Below are positions 28,481-41,661 of a DNA stretch of 64,000 nt, piece by piece. Location of the stretch: positions 1 through 64,000 of the forward strand of contig CAJWNQ010000003.1 in NCBI GenBank assembly GCA_913043905.1. Direction: 5' to 3'. The notes beneath the pieces are model-generated. The model did no database searches. It was given only the letters and a program-made list of their open reading frames with translations, and was not told the DNA's origin. The DNA is from an uncultured Paracoccaceae bacterium. Lineage in GTDB: Bacteria > Pseudomonadota > Alphaproteobacteria > Rhodobacterales > Rhodobacteraceae. The position numbers and the translations under genes were made by a program. The first letter of the stretch is position 1, and every line of letters begins with the position of its first letter.

Positions 28481-31129
28481 TTAAAAGTTTAAAGATACAT
28501 CCCGGTATCCAGATTGGCATTTAGCCACAAATAATGCCTGTTTTTTAGTTAATTTTGCTTGATCACGTATTCCAATAGTTTTTCGCATAGTGCTCTCATA
28601 CTTTGATAAATTTGGTAATATATAAGTTTCCCCTCTTGTTCGCCATTCTTCTTGTTTCTGATAGGCTGAAATCGCTTTATCTAATTCTTTTTGAGCTTTT
28701 TCTTTATTTGGTGTTCGTGATTTAAGAGCACGGCGAGCTTTGGAGATTGCTGATTTAATATTATTCGCCCCTGCGACTTTACTAAAGCGTTTTCCAAGTT
28801 CATTTAATGGATCTACCATGTCTGCAGGTTCATTATTTGTTACTTGAGCTTTGCTAGACATCAAATCATCTCGCAGCATATTAAAATCTGTAGTTGCTTC
28901 TAAAATAAGATTAATTTCTGCAATTGGCTGATATGCCGATTGCGCATACTTTGTGTACTGTTGATAAGCTGACTTTTCTTTTGCCTGAAGGGCACGAAAA
29001 TCAGCAAGTTTATCAGACCATTCTACGGGGATAGATTTTATTAATAACTTTTTTTCTTTTTCTAGTTCAGTAATCTTTTCTTTATAGTAACTTGGAGACA
29101 TGCCTTCTTCTAGGTCTTCGATATCTGCATTTAGATTTTTGATCTCAGCATCATGGCGACGAATATTTCGCTCAGTTGAGCGGACTGATTTATGAATAGG
29201 ACGAAACAGTTCAGATGCTTCTTTTAATTTTACACTTATCATCTCGGCACTACGCAATTGTTCTATAGCCATGCTTACATTATCAAAGCTTTTCGCTGTA
29301 TTTTTGGCTATTTTATTGGGGAGTATCGATAAGTCGATTGAACGAGCTGCTTCTACACCAGAAATAATAATATCACCGTTAGCTTTAATCTCATTTGAAA
29401 CATACTGATCAACACAATAAGCAAGCTGTGGATTACGAGGGGGTGGTGAGTTTTCTGATAACAAAGCTACACGGTTAGGAAGGTAATTAACTAAACTTGG
29501 TGAGGTTGCCACAATTACCATTGCAAATATTTGCAAACCAATAAAAGGAATAACCCCTTTATACATGTTTATTGTTTTAACTGCTGCGGGAGCGATACCT
29601 CGTAAATAGAATAGTGCAAAGCCAAATGGTGGTGTTAGAAAAGAAGTCTGAATATTTAAGCCAATCATTACACCTAACCAAACTGCGGTAACGTTTGCAC
29701 CCGGATCAGCTAACAAGATAGGTGCAACAATTGGGACAACAACAACCGCAATTTCAATAAAGTCCAAGAAAAATCCTAAAACAAAAATTACTGCCATGAC
29801 AATAATAAATTTTGACCAAAATCCACCCGCTAAACCGTCTAAAAATTCTTTGACTAAGTGTTCGCCACCAAAGGCTCTAAATGCAGCTGTTAAGATTGCG
29901 GCTCCTAAGAGGATGATAAACACCAAAGAGGTTGTTTTCGCAGTTTCCATCATCACACCATTTAATGTGTTTTCGATTTTGAATGCGCGGTAACCACTCC
30001 AAATTAAACTTATAACCAAACCAATAGTGGAGATTACAGCTAAGGCGACACCTAGTTGGTCACGATTAGTATCCATTCCTTTTATATTTGTATCAAAGTT
30101 TGCCAAAATAAAACCAATGGAAAATAAACTAACCAATGCCAAAATTGCAGGGTAATAACTATTTTTTTGTCCTTCAGTTAATCGATAGCCTGACATAACT
30201 AAAGCTCCAGCAGCACCAATCGCTCCTGCTTGATTTACAGTGGCAATACCTGACATAATTGAACCAAGTACAAGAAATATCAATAAAAGTGGTGGAACAA
30301 GGGATAAAAATACTTTTCTAGCAAATGCACGATTGTACTTACCTGTGTATGGGACAGCTGGTGCAGCAGAAGGTTTTAAAAATGCAAAAACCAGAATGTA
30401 CAACATATATAAACCAACTAAAACTATTCCAGGAATAAAAGCTCCAAGAAACATCTCACCTGCCGATGTTGATGTGACATCGAATGCAGATGGCATTGAA
30501 ATTTCACCAGTAGTTTGTTTATGCAAAGCTTTACGAATGCTAGAGCCTTGATCAGCAGCAGAGGCTAACTGGTCTGCTAAAATAATTAGAACAATAGATG
30601 GAGGTATTATTTGCCCAAGCGTTCCAGATGCAGCAATTGTCCCAGTTGCTAAAGATTGTGAATAATTATTACGTAACATAGCTGGCAGAGAAATTAATCC
30701 CATTGCCACAACTGTTGCTCCTACGATGCCTGTTGTAGCTGCTAATAAAGCACCAACGAATACAACAGAAATGCCTAAGCCACCTCGGACAGGTCCAAAT
30801 AGGTTGGCCATTGTTAATAATAAGTCTTCTGCAATTTTTGAGCGCTGCAACATAATACCCATAAAAATAAACAATGGAATTGCAATTAACGTATCTCTTT
30901 CTGGTTCCCAATAGGTTCCGCGTAGGTTGGCATTCCCTGAACTTAACCACGTCCATGCGGTTCCCTGACTAAAGAAAGCACCTTGGTCACCAGTTAATAA
31001 ATAACCTGAAACACCAGCTAGAACTAAAGTAATAATTGATGCACCTGGCAAAGCAAATGCAACGGGATATCCAAACCCCAGTGCCGTAGCCATTAAAACA
31101 ATAAGGAGAAAGAGAAAAAATAGTTCCAT
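28481..31129 (-). CDS. TRAP transporter large permease DctM with long C-terminal coiled-coil extension
   Basis: An 882-residue protein, about twice the usual DctM (~430). Residues ~1-565 form the multi-span DctM core (FLLIVLMATALGFGYPVAFALPG; WLGVMIGLNIQTSFLTPPFGFALFYL), itself enlarged by an internal loop. Residues ~570-882 are soluble and strongly charged, with predicted coiled coils (NIRRHDAEIKNLNADIEDLE; KITELEKEKKLL). It carries out Na+-dependent uptake with the DctQ and DctP partners. The start overlaps the dctQ stop (TAATG). The substrate is likely an organic acid, judged from the DctP type. Confidence 0.9.
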   Translation of the reverse strand: MELFFLFLLIVLMATALGFGYPVAFALPGASIITLVLAGVSGYLLTGDQGAFFSQGTAWTWLSSGNANLRGTYWEPERDTLIAIPLFIFMGIMLQRSKIAEDLLLTMANLFGPVRGGLGISVVFVGALLAATTGIVGATVVAMGLISLPAMLRNNYSQSLATGTIAASGTLGQIIPPSIVLIILADQLASAADQGSSIRKALHKQTTGEISMPSAFDVTSTSAGEMFLGAFIPGIVLVGLYMLYILVFAFLKPSAAPAVPYTGKYNRAFARKVFLSLVPPLLLIFLVLGSIMSGIATVNQAGAIGAAGALVMSGYRLTEGQKNSYYPAILALVSLFSIGFILANFDTNIKGMDTNRDQLGVALAVISTIGLVISLIWSGYRAFKIENTLNGVMMETAKTTSLVFIILLGAAILTAAFRAFGGEHLVKEFLDGLAGGFWSKFIIVMAVIFVLGFFLDFIEIAVVVVPIVAPILLADPGANVTAVWLGVMIGLNIQTSFLTPPFGFALFYLRGIAPAAVKTINMYKGVIPFIGLQIFAMVIVATSPSLVNYLPNRVALLSENSPPPRNPQLAYCVDQYVSNEIKANGDIIISGVEAARSIDLSILPNKIAKNTAKSFDNVSMAIEQLRSAEMISVKLKEASELFRPIHKSVRSTERNIRRHDAEIKNLNADIEDLEEGMSPSYYKEKITELEKEKKLLIKSIPVEWSDKLADFRALQAKEKSAYQQYTKYAQSAYQPIAEINLILEATTDFNMLRDDLMSSKAQVTNNEPADMVDPLNELGKRFSKVAGANNIKSAISKARRALKSRTPNKEKAQKELDKAISAYQKQEEWRTRGETYILPNLSKYESTMRKTIGIRDQAKLTKKQALFVAKCQSGYRDVSLNF

Positions 31130-33453: not shown

Positions 33454-33705
33454 TTAGTAGTAAAAAAGCATTATTTGCAAAGCTACATATGGCACTAAAT
33501 TAAATATTATAATCAGTATTTTATAATAGACTAATGCCCTAGGTATTTCTGAATAAAGCTTATTGGATTGGTCACTTATTAATGTATTCAAGATTTTTTT
33601 TACAATTTTTTTGAATATTGTAATCTTTAGGAACCCAATGGTTAAAAGTAGAATATTTAGTAAAAGCATCCAGCCAATAAAACTAACTAATTGTTCTAAT
33701 GTCAT
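33454..33705 (-). CDS. Small two-helix membrane protein (DUF6868-like)
   Basis: An 83-residue protein, MTLEQLVSFIGWMLLLNILLL at the N-terminus and YKILIIIFNLVPYVALQIMLFYY at the C-terminus, with a charged central helix. The pattern LEQL..F.GW...N..LL....NLVPY.AL resembles the DUF6868 small membrane family as I recall it; no function is known. A GGAAAA-type ribosome site precedes the ATG. It is the last member of a run of tiny minus-strand genes starting at 34202. Confidence 0.65.
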   Translation of the reverse strand: MTLEQLVSFIGWMLLLNILLLTIGFLKITIFKKIVKKILNTLISDQSNKLYSEIPRALVYYKILIIIFNLVPYVALQIMLFYY

Positions 33706-33751: not shown

Positions 33752-33901
33752 TCATATTTCTGGAGAATTTTTCTTTATCAAATGGCTATGTTTATGCATT
33801 AAATGTTCTGATCTGTTAGGTATTATAATTTCAAAAATAATAGCAGCTAAAATGGAAGCCCAAAGAATACCGATTATAACGATTGTAACGAGTTGTTCCA
33901 T
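33752..33901 (-). CDS. Tiny single-helix membrane protein (49 aa)
   Basis: Not in the ORF track. MEQLVTIVIIGILWASILAA begins a 49-residue protein with one transmembrane helix and a basic, His-rich tail (HLMHKHSHLIKKN). Its ATG overlaps the TAA of the upstream 75-codon ORF (TAATG), arguing for translational coupling. Function unknown. Confidence 0.55.
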   Translation of the reverse strand: MEQLVTIVIIGILWASILAAIIFEIIIPNRSEHLMHKHSHLIKKNSPEI

Positions 33902-34128
33902 TAAATGGCATTACAGTAAATTTTATTAGATAATATTGTTCTCTTTTTTATATTTATAATATGTTTTTCAATCGACTGATCAAATAGTTTTTTTTGTTTT
34001 AGATTAGTAATTATAGGTCTATTTTCCCGAGGCCAGTAACCCGCATCATCAAAATTAATATTAATTTTTAAAAAATTTGGGTATTTCAAAAATGAATATA
34101 TTAATAGTTTTTTTATGTAAGTGTTCAT
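33901..34128 (-). CDS. Small basic protein (75 aa), unknown
   Basis: A 75-residue Lys/Ile-rich protein containing DDAGYWPRENRP in its middle. No family recognised. Its ATG overlaps the TGA of the upstream 25-codon ORF (ATGA) and its TAA overlaps the next ATG (TAATG). This arrangement is hard to explain unless all three are translated. The amino-acid content follows the AT bias, so chance cannot be excluded. Confidence 0.5.
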   Translation of the reverse strand: MNTYIKKLLIYSFLKYPNFLKININFDDAGYWPRENRPIITNLKQKKLFDQSIEKHIINIKKRTILSNKIYCNAI

Positions 34129-34202
34129 CTGGTTAAAAACACTGATAATATAAAAATAATAGTGTAAATCGCAATTGGTATAACATAATTTATTCCAGAC
34201 AT
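34125..34202 (-). CDS. Tiny hydrophobic peptide (25 aa)
   Basis: Too short for the ORF track. MSGINYVIPIAIYTIIFILS and five more residues (VFLTR) give a single membrane helix. AAAAGGAT lies 7 bp before the ATG, a better ribosome site than most genes in this window. The stop overlaps the next start (ATGA). Similar tiny helices serve as small subunits of transporters, but no partner is identified here. Confidence 0.5.
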   Translation of the reverse strand: MSGINYVIPIAIYTIIFILSVFLTR

Positions 34203-34217
34203 TTATTTATCCTTTTA

Positions 34218-34295
34218 TATGACCCTAACAGTGCCAGGAGGTAACACTGCTAGGGGAGCCACGAGGGGGCGCTCTTCAGGTATTTCCAACCTGTA
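34218..34295 (-). ncRNA. GC-rich structured leader, three tandem hairpins
   Basis: In an AT-rich gap, about 75 bp are strongly GC-rich and can form three consecutive hairpins. They are CCCTA-a-CAGTG/CACTG-c-TAGGG (11-base-pair arms with one mismatch), GAGC(C)/(GGC)GCTC with a small loop, and CAGGT/ACCTG with a 7-base loop. Read on the minus strand they precede the AAAAGGA ribosome site and ATG of the 25-aa peptide by only a few bases, as a riboswitch or attenuator-like leader would. The strand is not proven; on the plus strand the element would lie 150 bp upstream of the response regulator. Confidence 0.45.
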
Positions 34296-34440
34296 TTGTA
34301 TTAGTAATTGATGAATATGCAGTAATAACTAGGAAAATTTGCAAACAGTATGAATATATGTGAATATTTTGTGCAGGCTCTTCAAATATCCTTGTTCCAT
34401 TAAAAATTATATGTGAAGGCTCGTTTTAAAGGTATTTTTA

Positions 34441-35124
34441 ATGACACATGTTATAATAGTTGATGATGAAAAAGAAATATTGGATCCACTTGAGGAAATG
34501 CTCTCAAGTGAAGGCTACCGTGTTTCAGCATTTTCTGATCCTAAAATAGCACTTGATTTCATAAGAAAAACAAATGTTGAGATTGCGATTTTTGATATTA
34601 AAATGCCTGAAATGAATGGATATGAATTGCTCACCCAAGCACGTAATATTCATCAAAACCTTCCTGTTATTTTTCTTTCGTCAAAGTCAGATGAACAAGA
34701 TCAAATTATTGGTTTTACTTTAGGTGCAGATGACTTTGTTGCAAAACCATTTAGTAAACATTTGTTATTATTTCGAATTAAATCAGTTTTAAAGCGCCAT
34801 ACTCCAGAAATAATAGCTATTCACAAACCTATAGTGTTTAATGAACTCTCGATTGATATAGACCGCCATCTAGTAACTTGGAAAAATGAAATTGTTAATC
34901 TTACTGTTACTGAATGTATGCTCTTAATTAGTTTAGCCCAAAGGCCAGGTGCTGTTAAAAAGCGTGAACAACTTATGGATGCAGCATACCAAGATAATAT
35001 TTATGTAAGTGATCGAACAATTGATAGTCACATTCGAAATATACGTCGAAAATTTGAAAGTATTGATAAGTTGTGTAATATTATTTCGACAGTCCATGGT
35101 CTGGGCTATAAGCTAAAGGCCTGA
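34441..35124 (+). CDS. chvI: OmpR-family response regulator (ChvI-like)
   Basis: A 227-residue two-domain regulator. The receiver has the acidic pocket VDDEKEI, phospho-Asp in AIFDIKMPEMNGYELL (Asp ~54) and Lys in FVAKPFS (~102). The winged-helix C-terminus contains KKREQLMDAAYQDNIYVSDRTIDSHIRNIRRKF, very like ChvI/ExoI of alphaproteobacteria. ChvI responds to acid or envelope signals in rhizobia. It is followed after 4 bp by its kinase gene. AAAGG lies 9 bp before the ATG. Confidence 0.85.
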   Translation: MTHVIIVDDEKEILDPLEEMLSSEGYRVSAFSDPKIALDFIRKTNVEIAIFDIKMPEMNGYELLTQARNIHQNLPVIFLSSKSDEQDQIIGFTLGADDFVAKPFSKHLLLFRIKSVLKRHTPEIIAIHKPIVFNELSIDIDRHLVTWKNEIVNLTVTECMLLISLAQRPGAVKKREQLMDAAYQDNIYVSDRTIDSHIRNIRRKFESIDKLCNIISTVHGLGYKLKA

Positions 35125-35128
35125 GCTA

Positions 35129-36673
35129 TTGCATAGTATATTAACAAAAATATTTGGCCTTTTGTTAATGTTTCTCATAGCTCTGTGGCTTTTCTTTTTT
35201 AGCTCAGACGACTTTGTTAAGAACGATATTTCAAATACAATAAAAAGGATAGAATCTTCGGCATCCTTCATGGGTAAAATTGCAAAACCACTATTAAAAA
35301 ATGATGAGACAGATGACTTTCAGATAATGTTAGCAATGTTTAATACTTTCAATGATGCTCAACTTTTACCAATTCATAAAGTCAAAGTTTATCGCTTTGA
35401 AAGGCAAACAAAGCTTGGTGATGGCTATGTTTATTATAATGGGACCCGACCTATTCTTAGATCGGCCATATCAGTTTCACCGTTAGATGCTATTGGAAAT
35501 CAGGGTAAGAAAACCAAATGGTATGCTTGGGATATTATTGGTACATTGTTTTCTTATTATAGAATTCTGACTGATGCGCAGGTATTAACAGATCCAATAG
35601 TTGCTAAAAGATCAAAATTTAATCCTCAATATCATGTAATTAAAACTGGAGAAAATACATATGACATTAGAGTATTAGCTCCGATTAAAATTAACCGTAA
35701 AACTGTAGCACTTGTTGAAGTTTGGGAGGATTATGACTTAAGGGATGCATACTTTAGTAGGAACGCGCTCAGAGTTCAGTTTTTGATTGGTATAAGTATA
35801 ATTACTTTAGTCTTTGGGCTTATACTTGCATTTTCCATAGCATTCCCACTAAGAAGGCTATCAAAACGTTTAAATCAAAGGTTAACACCAGATGATTTAG
35901 CAGAACAAATGGCTAATTTGTCTGTATCTAAATTTGCGTCTCGAAAAGATGAAATTGGACTTTTGCATAATAATCTTGTCGAATTAACAGGACAAATCAC
36001 AAGACTTTTCCAAGATAAAGAGCAATTTGCAGCGGACGTCTCACATGAGTTAAAGAATCCTATAGCTTCTATAATAGCTCATGTTGAGAATAACTTAGAA
36101 GCTGAAGATGATCATAAAATAAAAGCACTTTTAAAAATTAAAAATCAAGCAATTAGAATGAACAAACTTGTATCTGACATTTCGGAAGCAGCAATAGTTG
36201 ATCATGAAATTGTAGCAAAAAAACGAGTAAAATTTAATATAAGTAATGTAATTGATGATATTACTAATCACTATATTGATGAATTGAGAAAATCTCAGAT
36301 TACTTTGGAAGTGGATTTACAAAAAAATATTTATTTTAATGGATTGCCAGATAGAATAGCTCAAATTTTAATTAATCTCATTGAAAATGCAATTAGTTTT
36401 ACAAAGCCTGTAGGGTCAATACGTGTATCTCTACGAAAGAGATGGGGAAGGCCTTTGATGCTAATCGTTGAAGACAGTGGGCCTGGGGTAAAGGTTGAAA
36501 TGAGAGATCTAATTTTTGATAGATTTTTTTCATCGCGGACTGGACATACTGTAGTTAAAAATAGTTCAGGCCTGGGTCTATTTATGTGCCGTGAGATTGC
36601 TGAAGCTCATGAGGGCAAAGTTGATATTGAAACATCTTATTTGGGTGGTGCTAAGTTTACTGTAACTCTATAA
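35129..36673 (+). CDS. chvG: Sensor histidine kinase (ChvG-like)
   Basis: A 514-residue kinase: TM1 at ~6-24, a periplasmic sensor of ~190 residues, TM2 at ~215-235, HAMP (PLRRLSKRLNQRL), H-box FAADVSHELKNPIASI (His ~303), N-box INLIENAIS, G1 VEDSGPGV and G2 SSGLGLFMCREIAEAH. The layout and H-box match ChvG/ExoS. The start is TTG at 35129, which follows the response-regulator stop by 4 bp with AAAGG upstream. Unlike many alphaproteobacteria, no hprK/PTS genes follow it here. Confidence 0.85.
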   Translation: MHSILTKIFGLLLMFLIALWLFFFSSDDFVKNDISNTIKRIESSASFMGKIAKPLLKNDETDDFQIMLAMFNTFNDAQLLPIHKVKVYRFERQTKLGDGYVYYNGTRPILRSAISVSPLDAIGNQGKKTKWYAWDIIGTLFSYYRILTDAQVLTDPIVAKRSKFNPQYHVIKTGENTYDIRVLAPIKINRKTVALVEVWEDYDLRDAYFSRNALRVQFLIGISIITLVFGLILAFSIAFPLRRLSKRLNQRLTPDDLAEQMANLSVSKFASRKDEIGLLHNNLVELTGQITRLFQDKEQFAADVSHELKNPIASIIAHVENNLEAEDDHKIKALLKIKNQAIRMNKLVSDISEAAIVDHEIVAKKRVKFNISNVIDDITNHYIDELRKSQITLEVDLQKNIYFNGLPDRIAQILINLIENAISFTKPVGSIRVSLRKRWGRPLMLIVEDSGPGVKVEMRDLIFDRFFSSRTGHTVVKNSSGLGLFMCREIAEAHEGKVDIETSYLGGAKFTVTL

Positions 36674-36810: not shown

Positions 36811-38145
36811 ATGAATCATTCAACGTCAACGGCAGGTATAGTTTCTGGTCGTCTTAATGCTAACGCGTTAGTGGAAAATTTTGACGATCTACATGCGCCA
36901 CTTTCAAAGCATGAAGCATTAGTTGCTTCAGATCGTTGTTATTTTTGTCACGATGCGCCTTGTATGACTGCATGCCCTACGTCTATTGATATTCCATTAT
37001 TTATTCGCCAGATATCTACAGGAACGGCTGAAGCTTCAGCGAAGACTATTTTTTCTCAAAATATATTAGGTGGCATGTGTGCGCGTGTTTGCCCAACAGA
37101 AACATTATGTGAAGAAGTTTGTGTTCGTGAGGTTTCTGAAGGTAAACCTGTCGAAATTGGCCGGTTACAAAGGTTTGCAACAGACCGACTAATGTCACAA
37201 AATATTCATCCATTTGTACGCGCTAATAATACAGATAAAAAAATAGCTATAATTGGCTCTGGCCCAGCTGGATTGGCATGTGCACACAAACTGGCGACTT
37301 ATGGCCATGACGTGACAATTTTTGAAGCACGCAAAAAAGGTGGAGGTTTAAATGAATTTGGAATTGCTACTTACAAGTCAATAAATGATTTTGCGCAAAA
37401 AGAACTTGATTGGCTTTTATCTATTGGCGGTATTAAAGTTGAGTATGATAAAGCAATTGGAAAAGATATCAGTCTAAGTCAAGTGCAGTCTGATTATGAT
37501 GCAGTCTTCATTGGCATGGGCTTATCTGGAGTTAATGCACTACGTTGTGAAGGTGAAAATATGGCTAACGTGGATGACGCGGTCACCTTCATATCAGACC
37601 TACGCCAAACAGAAAATTTATCTAAAGTTCAAGTGGGACGTAATATTGTAGTTATTGGGGGTGGAATGACTGCTGTGGATGCTGCTGTACAATCTAAACT
37701 TCTGGGTGCGCAGAATGTATCGTTAGTTTATCGCCGTGGAAAAGAAAATATGAGTGCGTCAGTTTATGAGCAAGAACTGGCAACATCCAAGGGTGTCCGT
37801 ATAATTTATAACGCACAACCACTAAAGGTTTTGGTAAACGGATCTGGTCTGGATGTTGAGTTTGGATATACGGAAACAATTAATGGGAAATTAGAACAAA
37901 CAGGTGAAAAGTTTAATATAAATGCTGATCAAGTATTTAAGGCTATTGGACAAAATTTAAGTGGTGCATCTGAAATTTTAACTTTGTCAGGTGGAAAAAT
38001 TCAAATCGATGAAAATGGGTGTACAAGTGTACCAAATGTTTGGGCTGGTGGTGATTGTGCAACGGGAGGTGATGATCTTACCGTTACTGCCGTAGCTGAA
38101 GGTCGCGATGCGGCAATTAACATTAACACAATGCTTTTGAGCTAG
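36811..38145 (+). CDS. preT: NAD-dependent dihydropyrimidine dehydrogenase, flavin subunit PreT
   Basis: A 444-residue GltD-like subunit. The N-terminal Fe-S region has CYFCHDAPCMTACPTSIDIP (~46-65) and CARVCPTETLCEEVC (~91-105). The FAD site is IIGSGPAGLACAHKLA (~150) and the NAD site is VIGGGMTAVDAAVQSKLLGA (~282). With PreA it reduces uracil and thymine to dihydropyrimidines using NADH, the first step of reductive pyrimidine catabolism. GGGGGAC lies 5 bp before the ATG. preA follows after 22 bp. Confidence 0.92.
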   Translation: MNHSTSTAGIVSGRLNANALVENFDDLHAPLSKHEALVASDRCYFCHDAPCMTACPTSIDIPLFIRQISTGTAEASAKTIFSQNILGGMCARVCPTETLCEEVCVREVSEGKPVEIGRLQRFATDRLMSQNIHPFVRANNTDKKIAIIGSGPAGLACAHKLATYGHDVTIFEARKKGGGLNEFGIATYKSINDFAQKELDWLLSIGGIKVEYDKAIGKDISLSQVQSDYDAVFIGMGLSGVNALRCEGENMANVDDAVTFISDLRQTENLSKVQVGRNIVVIGGGMTAVDAAVQSKLLGAQNVSLVYRRGKENMSASVYEQELATSKGVRIIYNAQPLKVLVNGSGLDVEFGYTETINGKLEQTGEKFNINADQVFKAIGQNLSGASEILTLSGGKIQIDENGCTSVPNVWAGGDCATGGDDLTVTAVAEGRDAAININTMLLS

Positions 38146-38167: not shown

Positions 38168-39472
38168 ATGGCAGATCTTACAAGTAATTTTGTTGGCATA
38201 AAATCACCCAATCCGTTCTGGTTGGCATCAGCGCCACCAACGGATAAAGAATATAATGTTCGGCGTGCATTTGAAGCTGGGTGGGGTGGTGTTGTTTGGA
38301 AAACCCTCGGGTCAGAAGGTCCTCCTGTCGTTAATGTAAATGGCCCACGCTATGGAGTTGTGCATGGTGCTGATCGTCGTGTCTTAGGCTTAAACAACAT
38401 TGAACTTATTACAGATCGTGATTTATATAAAAATCTTGATGAAATTAAACGTGTCAAAATAGATTACCCTGATAGAGCAATTATTGTTTCTCTTATGGTA
38501 CCTTGTGAGGAAGAGGCATGGAAGGCTATATTGCCTCTTGTTGAAGAAACGGGCGCAGATGGAATTGAATTAAACTTTGGTTGTCCACATGGGATGGCTG
38601 AGCGTGGCATGGGTGCTGCTGTTGGTCAGGTCCCCGAATACATAGAAATGGTTACACGTTGGTGCAAACAATATTACTCAAAGCCAGTTATAGTAAAACT
38701 GACACCTAATATTACAGATGTTCGTCAGCCTGCTGCGGCTGCGCAAGCGGGTGGTGCAGATGCTGTTTCACTCATTAATACGATAAATTCAATTATATCA
38801 GTTGATCTGGATGTTATGGCACCAAATCCAACAATTGATGGTAAAGGAACCCATGGGGGATATTGTGGTCCTGCAGTTAAACCAATAGCAATGAACATGG
38901 TTGCCGAAATTGCCCGTGACCCAGAGACTTCTGGTCTGCCAATTTCAGGGATTGGCGGCATCACCAATTGGCGTGATGCAGCTGAATATATGGTTTTGGG
39001 ATGTGGAAATGTACAGGTTTGTACTGCAGCAATGACTTATGGCTTTAAAATTGTTGAAGAAATGATCAGTGGGTTATCTCAATGGATGGATGAAAAGGGA
39101 CACACATCAATTGATGATTTTGTTGGAAGAGCAGTTCCAAATGTGACTGACTGGCAATACTTAAACCTAAACTACGTATCCAAAGCATCTATTAATCAAG
39201 ATGATTGCATTAATTGTGGGCGCTGTTATGCGGCATGTGAAGATACCTCTCACCAAGCTATTGCGATGACTAAGGATCGTGAATTTAGTGTTATCGATTC
39301 AGAATGTGTTGCATGTAATTTATGTGTAGAGGTCTGTCCTGTAGAAAATTGCATTACTATGGTTCAACAAGAGCCAGGCATGGTTGATGCTCGTACGAAT
39401 AAAGTTGTGGAAAAAGAACATGGAGATTGGACAACGCATCCTAATAATCCAAGTGTTTTTGCTGCAGAATAA
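38168..39472 (+). CDS. preA: NAD-dependent dihydropyrimidine dehydrogenase, catalytic subunit PreA
   Basis: A 434-residue subunit. The FMN-binding TIM barrel includes the catalytic Cys loop LNFGCPHGMAERGMGAAVG (~137-155) and GIGGITNWRDAAEYMVLG. The C-terminal ferredoxin domain binds two 4Fe-4S clusters (CINCGRCYAACE and CVACNLCVEVCPVENC). It catalyses C5-C6 reduction of pyrimidines with electrons from PreT. AGGAAAGAAGG precedes the start. It sits in one operon with preT and probably the EamA gene. Confidence 0.93.
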   Translation: MADLTSNFVGIKSPNPFWLASAPPTDKEYNVRRAFEAGWGGVVWKTLGSEGPPVVNVNGPRYGVVHGADRRVLGLNNIELITDRDLYKNLDEIKRVKIDYPDRAIIVSLMVPCEEEAWKAILPLVEETGADGIELNFGCPHGMAERGMGAAVGQVPEYIEMVTRWCKQYYSKPVIVKLTPNITDVRQPAAAAQAGGADAVSLINTINSIISVDLDVMAPNPTIDGKGTHGGYCGPAVKPIAMNMVAEIARDPETSGLPISGIGGITNWRDAAEYMVLGCGNVQVCTAAMTYGFKIVEEMISGLSQWMDEKGHTSIDDFVGRAVPNVTDWQYLNLNYVSKASINQDDCINCGRCYAACEDTSHQAIAMTKDREFSVIDSECVACNLCVEVCPVENCITMVQQEPGMVDARTNKVVEKEHGDWTTHPNNPSVFAAE

Positions 39473-39481
39473 TATCCTTAG

Positions 39482-40384
39482 ATGACCCAAGAGTTTAAGG
39501 GTCATCTTGCTATGTTGTGCTTTTCGGCACTTATTGCCGGATCATTTGCACTAGGCAGTTTAATTATTAACAGTTTGTCGCCTATCGTTGTAACTGTAAT
39601 TAGGTTTGCAATTACTGCTCTTATTCTAGGTGGATTAATTATAGTAACTCAACCTTTAAGTAGATTGTCTTTTAAAACACCACTACGTTATATTATTTTA
39701 GGTTCTTGCTTAGTCTTATATTTTGTTTTGATGTTTGAAGCTTTGAAAACGGCATCACCTATATCTTTGTCTGTAGAGTTTACCATGGCACCATTTATCA
39801 GTGGTTTATTTGGTTATCTAATTTTACGACAGAAAATTACATTAAGAATTTTAATTGCTTTATTTATTGGATCTATAGGTGCGCTTTGGGTCATATTTAA
39901 TGGAGATTTAAGTCGTTTTTTAGAATTTCAAGTTGGGCGAGGCGAAATACTTTTCTTTATTGGGATGTCATTTTACGCTCTATATGTGCCACTGGTTCGA
40001 AAATTTAATTATGATGAACCACCTATTATTTTTACATTTGCAATAACTATAGGGGCATTACTGATTTCGCTACCTTTTGCATTTAAAGAAATAATCAGTA
40101 CTAACTTCGCAGTCATTAGAAGTCTTGATGTATTTATTATTTTATATTTAGCAATTTTTGCAAGTGCAGCCACATTTTTATTAATTCAATATGCTGCGCT
40201 AAGACTGCCATCTGTAAAAGTAATGGCTCATACATATTTAACGCCGAGCTGGGTAATTGTTTGGCATTTATTATTAGGGATAGAAGGACCTTCATCTTCA
40301 GATTTTGCAGGTATTTTTTTTACAATTGTTGCTTTAGTTATTCTTCTTAAGGAGCAAACTAAAGATAAAGTTTCAAGGAGTTAA
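39482..40384 (+). CDS. DMT-superfamily transporter (EamA domains)
   Basis: A 300-residue protein with ten predicted membrane segments in two EamA repeats: FSALIAGSFALGSLIINSLSP at the start and LIQYAALRLPSVKVMAHTYLTPSWVIVWHLLLG in the second half. The family exports or exchanges small metabolites. Beginning 9 bp after preA, it may export a pyrimidine breakdown product such as beta-alanine-type compounds; this is inference. Its 3' end overlaps the convergent TetR gene by 12 bp. Confidence 0.88.
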   Translation: MTQEFKGHLAMLCFSALIAGSFALGSLIINSLSPIVVTVIRFAITALILGGLIIVTQPLSRLSFKTPLRYIILGSCLVLYFVLMFEALKTASPISLSVEFTMAPFISGLFGYLILRQKITLRILIALFIGSIGALWVIFNGDLSRFLEFQVGRGEILFFIGMSFYALYVPLVRKFNYDEPPIIFTFAITIGALLISLPFAFKEIISTNFAVIRSLDVFIILYLAIFASAATFLLIQYAALRLPSVKVMAHTYLTPSWVIVWHLLLGIEGPSSSDFAGIFFTIVALVILLKEQTKDKVSRS

Positions 40385-40996
40385 CATTGTGCTGAACATT
40401 GTCTTTAAAAAAGGGCCCGCTGTGTCAAAGGGATCTTTAGTATTGTTATCTAATACAGACCGAACTTGAATGTCGAAGTCCGCGTAATGTTGTGTAGTTG
40501 CCCAAATTGAAAAGAATAAATGATGTGGATCAACTTGAGCAATTTTTCCATCTTTCGACCATGCTTCTAAAATCTCTACTTTTTGAGCCACTAGGTCTTT
40601 TAGTGTGCCTTGTAATTCAGGCAATACATGTGGAGCACCCTGCAAGATTTCATTAGCAAAAAGTTTGCTTTCACGTGGAAAATCACGAGCCATATTAAGT
40701 TTTTGCTCAATATATTTACAAATTTCGTCTATAGGATCGTTGTCTTCGTTGATAGCATGCAGTGGAGCTAACCAAGTTTCTAACAGTTTTGCGAGAACTG
40801 TAACGTGAATGGCTTCTTTGTTGTCAAAGTAATATAAAATATTTGGTTTAGATAGTTTTGCTCGCTTGGCTATCATATCAATAGTAGAGCCCCGAAAGCC
40901 AAAATCTGAAAATACATCTAACGCAGCTTCTAAAATTATATCTGTTCGTTGACGCTGTATCCGCGTGAGTTTTTTTGTAGTTTGTGATCTAGCCAT
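40373..40996 (-). CDS. TetR-family repressor, RutR-like (copy A)
   Basis: A 207-residue regulator. The HTH is GFRGSTIDMIAKRAKLSKPNILYYFDNKEAIHVTVL (~33-68), and the C-terminal YcdC/RutR-type ligand domain contains FFSIWATTQHYADFDIQVRSVL (~165-185). RutR in E. coli senses uracil/thymine and controls pyrimidine use. Its position between preTA and the hydantoinase operon supports the same role. It forms a tandem pair with the gene at 41020. Confidence 0.88.
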   Translation of the reverse strand: MARSQTTKKLTRIQRQRTDIILEAALDVFSDFGFRGSTIDMIAKRAKLSKPNILYYFDNKEAIHVTVLAKLLETWLAPLHAINEDNDPIDEICKYIEQKLNMARDFPRESKLFANEILQGAPHVLPELQGTLKDLVAQKVEILEAWSKDGKIAQVDPHHLFFSIWATTQHYADFDIQVRSVLDNNTKDPFDTAGPFLKTMFSTMLTP

Positions 40997-41019: not shown

Positions 41020-41661
41020 TTAACTTGGAGTAAGGCCAATTCCTTTTAATATAATTGTTTTAACCGATAATTTAGCAATCTGCCACTGTGCATCACTATA
41101 TGGCTTGCCTGCATTTAAAGTTTCAATCTGATGGCCGAAATCTGCATAGTGCTGTGTGGTTGACCAAATCATATATAACAAATGAGCAGGGTCGATTGAA
41201 TCCATTTCACCATCTTCGATCCATCTTTGAATGTGTTTGCTGCGATCTTGTGACCATTCAAGTAATTGCCCTTCTAGATAATCTTGTATTATTGGTGCAC
41301 CGTGAATAATTTCAGTAGCCCATACTTTTGAGCCATATGGATGAGTGCGCGCTAGGTCCATTTTTTTATCGATGTACCGACTAAGTGCTTCGCGTGGACC
41401 AAGTTCTGTATCAAAAGCAGAGGCAGCTTCCATCCATATATCAAAAATATTATAAACTACCTGACGATAAAGATCCTCTTTAGTTTTAAAATAATAATGT
41501 ATGTTTGCTTTAGGTAAATTTGCTACATCTGCAATTAGCTGTGTGGTTGCGCCAGCATAGCCAGCTTCAGCAAATACTTTTTCAGCAGCAGCTAAAATAT
41601 TTGTTTTATTTTGAGATCGTTTTGCGAATTTTTGAAATGAAACAGTATTGCTTGCGATTAT
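41020..41661 (-). CDS. TetR-family repressor, RutR-like (copy B), non-canonical start codon
   Basis: The ORF track shows only 137 residues from an internal Met, but the same frame stays open upstream and encodes a complete HTH: VFAEAGYAGATTQLIADVAN followed by LPKANIHYYFKTKEDLYRQV. The full protein is about 213 residues with the RutR-like C-terminus (MIWSTTQHYADFGHQIETL). A strong GGGAGG lies just upstream, but the codons at proper spacing are ATC-ATA-ATC; no ATG, GTG or TTG is available. Either an ATA/ATC start is used, the start codon has mutated, or one base is misread. Probably a uracil-type sensor acting at the two adjacent palindromes. Confidence 0.75.
   Translation of the reverse strand: MIASNTVSFQKFAKRSQNKTNILAAAEKVFAEAGYAGATTQLIADVANLPKANIHYYFKTKEDLYRQVVYNIFDIWMEAASAFDTELGPREALSRYIDKKMDLARTHPYGSKVWATEIIHGAPIIQDYLEGQLLEWSQDRSKHIQRWIEDGEMDSIDPAHLLYMIWSTTQHYADFGHQIETLNAGKPYSDAQWQIAKLSVKTIILKGIGLTPS

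Follow-up and report, generated by a model that had tools for sequence, protein, structure and literature searches.

RESULTS

Genes and features of the locus

Within the window, the stretch of 64,000 nucleotides that was analyzed, a two-component system on the plus strand is divergent from a structured RNA and a series of short genes on the minus strand. The response regulator (34441..35124, plus strand) was assigned to the OmpR family by Pfam. In a tree, it and its relatives do not group with canonical ChvI but form a separate clade, the sister group of canonical ChvI (100/100). The adjacent gene (35129..36673, plus strand) encodes a ChvG-like sensor histidine kinase, for which ChvG is the best NCBIfam match at 170 bits, below the 740-bit cut-off; among the proteins of the genome, this kinase is the top ChvG-type match (172 bits), the next scoring 104. 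Of the 33 species of the genus, 5 have the regulator/kinase pair. Canonical ChvI in this genus adjoins phosphoenolpyruvate carboxykinase (the carboxykinase gene being recognized from sequence).

Between the regulator gene and the RNA lie TGCAC/TTCACA/TTCATA direct repeats (34339..34377, minus strand) with a period of about 11 bp, and TGCAC-type repeats of this period occupy the same interval in 17 of 17 loci. Direct repeats so spaced are expected of an OmpR-family site. Judged by sequence, the repeats are probably binding sites of the divergent response regulator.

Three tiny genes follow the RNA on the minus strand (33752-34202), each leading straight into the next. ORF1 (34125..34202) encodes a 25-aa peptide with a single transmembrane (TM) segment, MSGINYVIPIAIYTIIFILSVFLTR. 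The start of ORF2 (33901..34128; 75 aa) overlaps the ORF1 stop (ATGA), and ORF3 (33752..33901; 49 aa, one TM segment) comes directly after ORF2. None of the three matched a Pfam family at cut-off, and ORF2 gave no NCBIfam match. Downstream of this operon, positions 33454-33705 (minus strand) encode an 83-aa protein of DUF6868, a family of unassigned function.

Counterparts of ORF1 with 23 to 28 aa are present in five other genera. The ORF1 peptide has 25 aa in each of the five sister species, and the hydropathy is of the TM type in these and in all the other peptides. The pN/pS ratio is 0.12 to 0.20 in the more divergent pairs, with synonymous changes outnumbering replacements, and 0.5 to 0.6 in the nearest pairs (window-G002 and G030-G026), where changes are too few to be informative. 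By this coding signal, the 25-aa peptide is genuine. Downstream of the micropeptide, other genera have an exported protein of roughly 170 aa (in locus L087 from about position 1103, in L089 from about 2498), and thus the operon partner differs between genera; the one such protein tested matched no Pfam family.

Two observations elsewhere in the window were also recorded. Adjacent TetR_C_3 regulators (40373-40996 and 41020-41433, minus strand), the second without the DNA-binding N-terminal domain, represent a tandem copy or a truncated relic and adjoin pyrimidine-degradation genes (preT-like, 36811-38145; preA-like, 38168-39472). At 28481-31129 (minus strand), an 882-aa TRAP large permease (DctM) is about twice the usual length and contains three DctM-matching stretches.

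A structured RNA is encoded on the minus strand

The earlier note had described a GC-rich segment with three hairpins in an AT-rich gap, and this was confirmed: the GC fraction is about 0.50 in 34200-34279 versus 0.16 to 0.35 in the surrounding DNA. The RNA, a leader or leader-derived RNA, spans 34208..34294 (minus strand; covariance model R1/R2 match of 95 to 106 bits, with homologues in relatives). Hairpin H1 (34277..34293) is CAGGU-UGGAAAU-ACCUG, in which 93% of cells are paired across 11 sequences and the letters are nearly invariant. Hairpin H2 (34256..34274), GAGC-...CCCCCUCGUG-GCUC, is mostly invariant and 100% paired in the same sequences. Hairpin H3 (34223..34255) has 11 bp plus 3 inner pairs, and its loop region UUACCUCCUGG (34234..34244), invariant in 5 species, exposes CCUCC. 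As also proposed earlier, the minus-strand hairpins end just before the ribosome site of the membrane peptide. About 10 nt separate them from AGGA (34210..34213), which lies outside the hairpins and is unpaired in the predicted fold; the ATG of the peptide follows at 34202.

Several results assign the structure to the minus strand. The minus-strand fold in the window is better than dinucleotide shuffles (z of -2.65), whereas the plus-strand fold is no better than shuffles in the window (z of 0.0) and in 4 of 5 close species. Species differences within the main stem are G.U compatible only on the minus strand. The mismatch reported in the 11-bp arms of H3 is a C.A on the plus strand and a G.U pair on the minus strand. 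The AGGAGG seen in the loop on the plus strand is the mere complement of the conserved CCUCC.

In the window, no family of Rfam release 15 was matched at the gathering score, and at a permissive threshold neither the window nor the loci from six other genera gave anything relevant. The segment is single copy in its 2.02-Mb genome and is therefore not a scattered repeat, the multicopy origin that had been raised against it. On the minus strand, no intrinsic terminator was seen after H3, and thus a free small RNA would need processing. That the minus-strand structured RNA is itself real is close to certain; it was previously unlisted, and it probably regulates translation.

The RNA is conserved across Rhodobacteraceae genera

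Among 33 species of the genus, the RNA and ORF2 were both found in the same 4 species besides that of the window. The sister species (n = 4) keep the RNA with identical neighbors. In the 5 close species, 65 letters of the aligned RNA segment are identical in 5 of 5, and the entire leader-to-regulator gap is conserved. The first covariance model, R1, was made from these 5 species and found a match in another genus, G740 (40 bits, E value of 1e-7). This match lies at the same locus, where the divergent gene encodes an orthologous regulator of 64% identity and a 28-aa membrane peptide comes directly after the RNA. Tracing of the regulator gene through the family led to five more genera (G461, G750, G637, G550, and G650) and then to sister species.

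Homologues in the six further genera were recognized by model or by synteny. Hairpins, some of them divergent and rewritten, stand at the equivalent place in all six, and a single-TM peptide of 23 to 28 aa is evident in all except G550. Model R2, built without G650 and G750, finds both at the expected place (38 and 22 bits, respectively), and its scan of 23 canonical-chvI loci gave no match. R2 gives no match in G550, where the leader spacing differs and strong hairpins with C/U loops are kept. The G461 genus has a derived layout with one large hairpin, recognized by neither R1 nor R2, and was counted as a member from synteny, loop, and peptide. In G814, one genome of that genus (locus L118), a TAG stop lies inside the regulator frame and the peptide start is changed, which suggests from sequence that the locus is decaying there. 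An exact-core search of all species genomes returned four related Rhodobacteraceae contigs and two unrelated records, which are probably chance matches; the loop core was not found in viral contigs.

In a first model-fitted alignment of 9 sequences, 6 H3 pairs change on both sides. With G650 and G750 added (11 sequences, five genera), 12 of 14 H3 pairs changed on both sides (34 cells, 96% paired), in an alignment that was fitted to the model and leans to its structure, which inflates covariation counts. The H3 covariation score is 0.477, compared with 0.197 ± 0.025 for shuffled alignments (0 of 500 reached it) and at most 0.155 for slid alignments. Long helices are also predicted in each sequence folded alone, in agreement with the covariation, as are the slid controls. 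H1 and H2 are nearly invariant, and covariation therefore neither supports nor contradicts them. Compensatory base changes, the mark of a structured RNA, are thus present in H3, and the homologues carrying them had been the earlier note's own check. These data support the reading of the segment as a minus-strand structured RNA, so far undescribed, that precedes the short membrane peptide.

C/U-rich loops recur while the stems are rewritten

The stems are rewritten between genera, and a C/U-rich loop atop a strong helix recurs in most members. This loop is CCUCC in H3 of the window (ACCUCCU in context), CUCCCC in G637, AAUUCUCCCG in G650, CUCCCCUCCCA in G750, and UUCUCCCUC in G461; G550 has two, AUUCCUCCCUG and UACCCUCCAAAC. 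In G740 the H3 loop is CACAUUUU, and the C/U-rich loop, UCUCCCCCA, is placed in H2 instead. H2 is enlarged, with a C/U-rich loop, in both G740 and G750. Anti-Shine-Dalgarno (anti-SD) forms outside the window include UCUCCC, CUCCCC, and CUCCCCUCCC. One member, G810, fails the formal C/U-loop test because its loop exceeds the cut-off length. Shuffled leaders yield such a loop in 1 to 13% of cases, for a motif that was defined post hoc, after the loops had been seen.

CCUCC is the core of the 16S anti-SD sequence (PMC10783764). In nearly every case, the loops paired more strongly with a consensus Shine-Dalgarno (SD) sequence than with the SD of the RNA itself (-14.3 versus -4.6 kcal/mol in the window). 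A search for trans targets through extended SD complementarity gave no enrichment: CAGGAGGT before ATG was no commoner than a reversed-pattern control, and across five genomes it marked no conserved gene.

DISCUSSION

What was observed at this locus comprises the structure, its strand, covariation, a conserved neighborhood, a coding peptide, and recurring C/U loops. We consider it about an even chance (0.5) that the transcript carries anti-SD loops that pair with the ribosome sites of other mRNAs, probably under the control of the two-component system. The divergent ChvGI-like system would switch on a minus-strand transcript in which the folded RNA comes first and the 25-aa membrane peptide and further short genes follow. 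Stable hairpins would present C/U-rich loops, CCUCC in the window, as single strands complementary to SD sequences. The RNA would act as a leader or, after a presumed processing step, as a small RNA, and its loops may base-pair with the ribosome sites of other mRNAs and so block translation. G550 has the hairpins without an evident peptide gene, which favors a function of the RNA itself.

By analogy with AbcR1, AbcR2, NfeR1, and ChvR, the use of the loops with the best support is pairing with ribosome sites on other mRNAs. AbcR1/AbcR2 and NfeR1 of rhizobia carry the anti-SD motifs CUCCUCCC and UUCCCCUC in hairpin loops or unpaired stretches, and they establish that alphaproteobacterial small RNAs (sRNAs) with such motifs repress translation (PMC8844928). 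The RNA described here likewise exposes an anti-SD motif in a hairpin loop, CCUCC in the window and C/U rich elsewhere. However, CUCCUCCC itself is absent, the window having ACCUCCU and the nearest form being CUCCCCUCCC in G750. AbcR1/2 and NfeR1 are also stand-alone intergenic sRNAs with their own terminators, whereas this RNA has other loop sequences, shows no terminator-like site after H3, and runs on into the gene of a micropeptide, with a two-component system on the opposite side. The SisA-D/alpha-R8 family of Caulobacter uses the short anti-SD-type motif UUUCCUCCCU as a pairing site (PMC12559287); unlike the RNA here, it holds the motif in a single-stranded stretch and has its own terminator.

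ChvR of Caulobacter crescentus is a three-hairpin RNA under ChvI-ChvG that pairs via its hairpin loops (PMC6237742). The three hairpins are shared, and control by a ChvI-like regulator and loop pairing would be. Yet ChvR is found upstream of recF/gyrB and in C. crescentus alone, and an intrinsic terminator may mark its end (PMC6237742), whereas the present RNA is divergent from the ChvI-like regulator gene. Identity with ChvR was rejected, as locus and range do not fit. In Rhodobacter, CcsR1-4 and CcaF1 at the CIN1 locus represent a structured regulatory RNA co-transcribed with a small protein gene (PMC10253847). The combination of regulatory RNA and small protein gene in Rhodobacteraceae is similar, with co-transcription predicted here. 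However, CcsR comes after a DUF1127 gene, behind an RpoHI/HII promoter, whereas here a TM peptide comes after the RNA, and no DUF1127 family is matched by the short ORFs linked to it or by the neighbors tested. By these comparisons, the RNA would work like known anti-SD-loop RNAs but belongs to none of the families tested.

A reading that we hold to be appreciably less probable is that of a cis-acting leader, whose hairpins and loops act on their own transcript only and gate translation or stability of the peptide operon, for instance through pairing of loop and SD or as a stand-by or stability element. In most loci the hairpins do stop a short way ahead of the peptide SD, leader and peptide co-occur in six genera, and UCCU of the loop is able to pair with AGGA of the SD. 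However, most members give -3 to -5 kcal/mol for this pairing, which is weak and lacks conservation. In most members the predicted fold also leaves the SD unpaired, and G550 has the RNA without an evident peptide. That loop composition rather than the exact letters is conserved would also suit an RNA whose C/U loops bind a CcaF1-type DUF1127 protein, Hfq, or a ribosomal or translation protein in control of transcript maturation or turnover. In alphaproteobacteria, CcaF1 and other small DUF1127 proteins are associated with CcsR-like sRNAs (PMC10253847), but no such protein gene was recognized at the locus, and we regard this explanation as rather unlikely.

Palindromic arms and a position between divergent genes might instead point to a DNA element, with the 11-bp inverted repeat as an operator. 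Such an operator is highly improbable, since the arms are rewritten between genera and still pair, in part through G.U pairs that break the DNA symmetry, and since the putative regulator boxes are upstream of the segment. The leader position and a stop-free frame in the window had raised the ideas of a metabolite riboswitch and of an arrest peptide, which together we give very little weight. The riboswitch is unlikely: no conserved pocket-like or ligand-like core exists, no Rfam family matches, and the C/U-rich loop persists amid free rewriting of the stems and of most loop letters. The frame proposed for an arrest peptide has a TTG start in the window only, no relative has a start there, and 1-nt indels between species shift the frame. 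With neither start nor reading frame conserved, a translated arrest-peptide leader or upstream open reading frame was rejected.

Pairing of the loops with other mRNAs could be one half of a broader arrangement, which we propose tentatively. One two-component system would control a dual-function transcript, with an anti-SD regulatory RNA at the 5' end and a coding part for the 25-aa membrane peptide, which possibly feeds back on the kinase; the RNA family would rewrite its stems and keep only its shape and C/U loop. MgrB-type TM feedback proteins are short single-TM proteins encoded beside or under a two-component system. For the 25-aa peptide they offer only an analogy, as another short single-TM protein beside such a system.

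These results add a covariation-supported, unlisted RNA to abundant marine Roseobacter-type bacteria, at a locus common to further Rhodobacteraceae genera. The RNA is linked to a two-component system of the envelope-stress type and to a micropeptide whose length falls below what is usually annotated. Since the chemistry of the loops is maintained through the changes in the stems, the family offers a natural test of whether the conserved function lies in the presentation of anti-SD loops alone. A defined locus is also provided at which micropeptide-plus-RNA regulators of Roseobacters can be sought.
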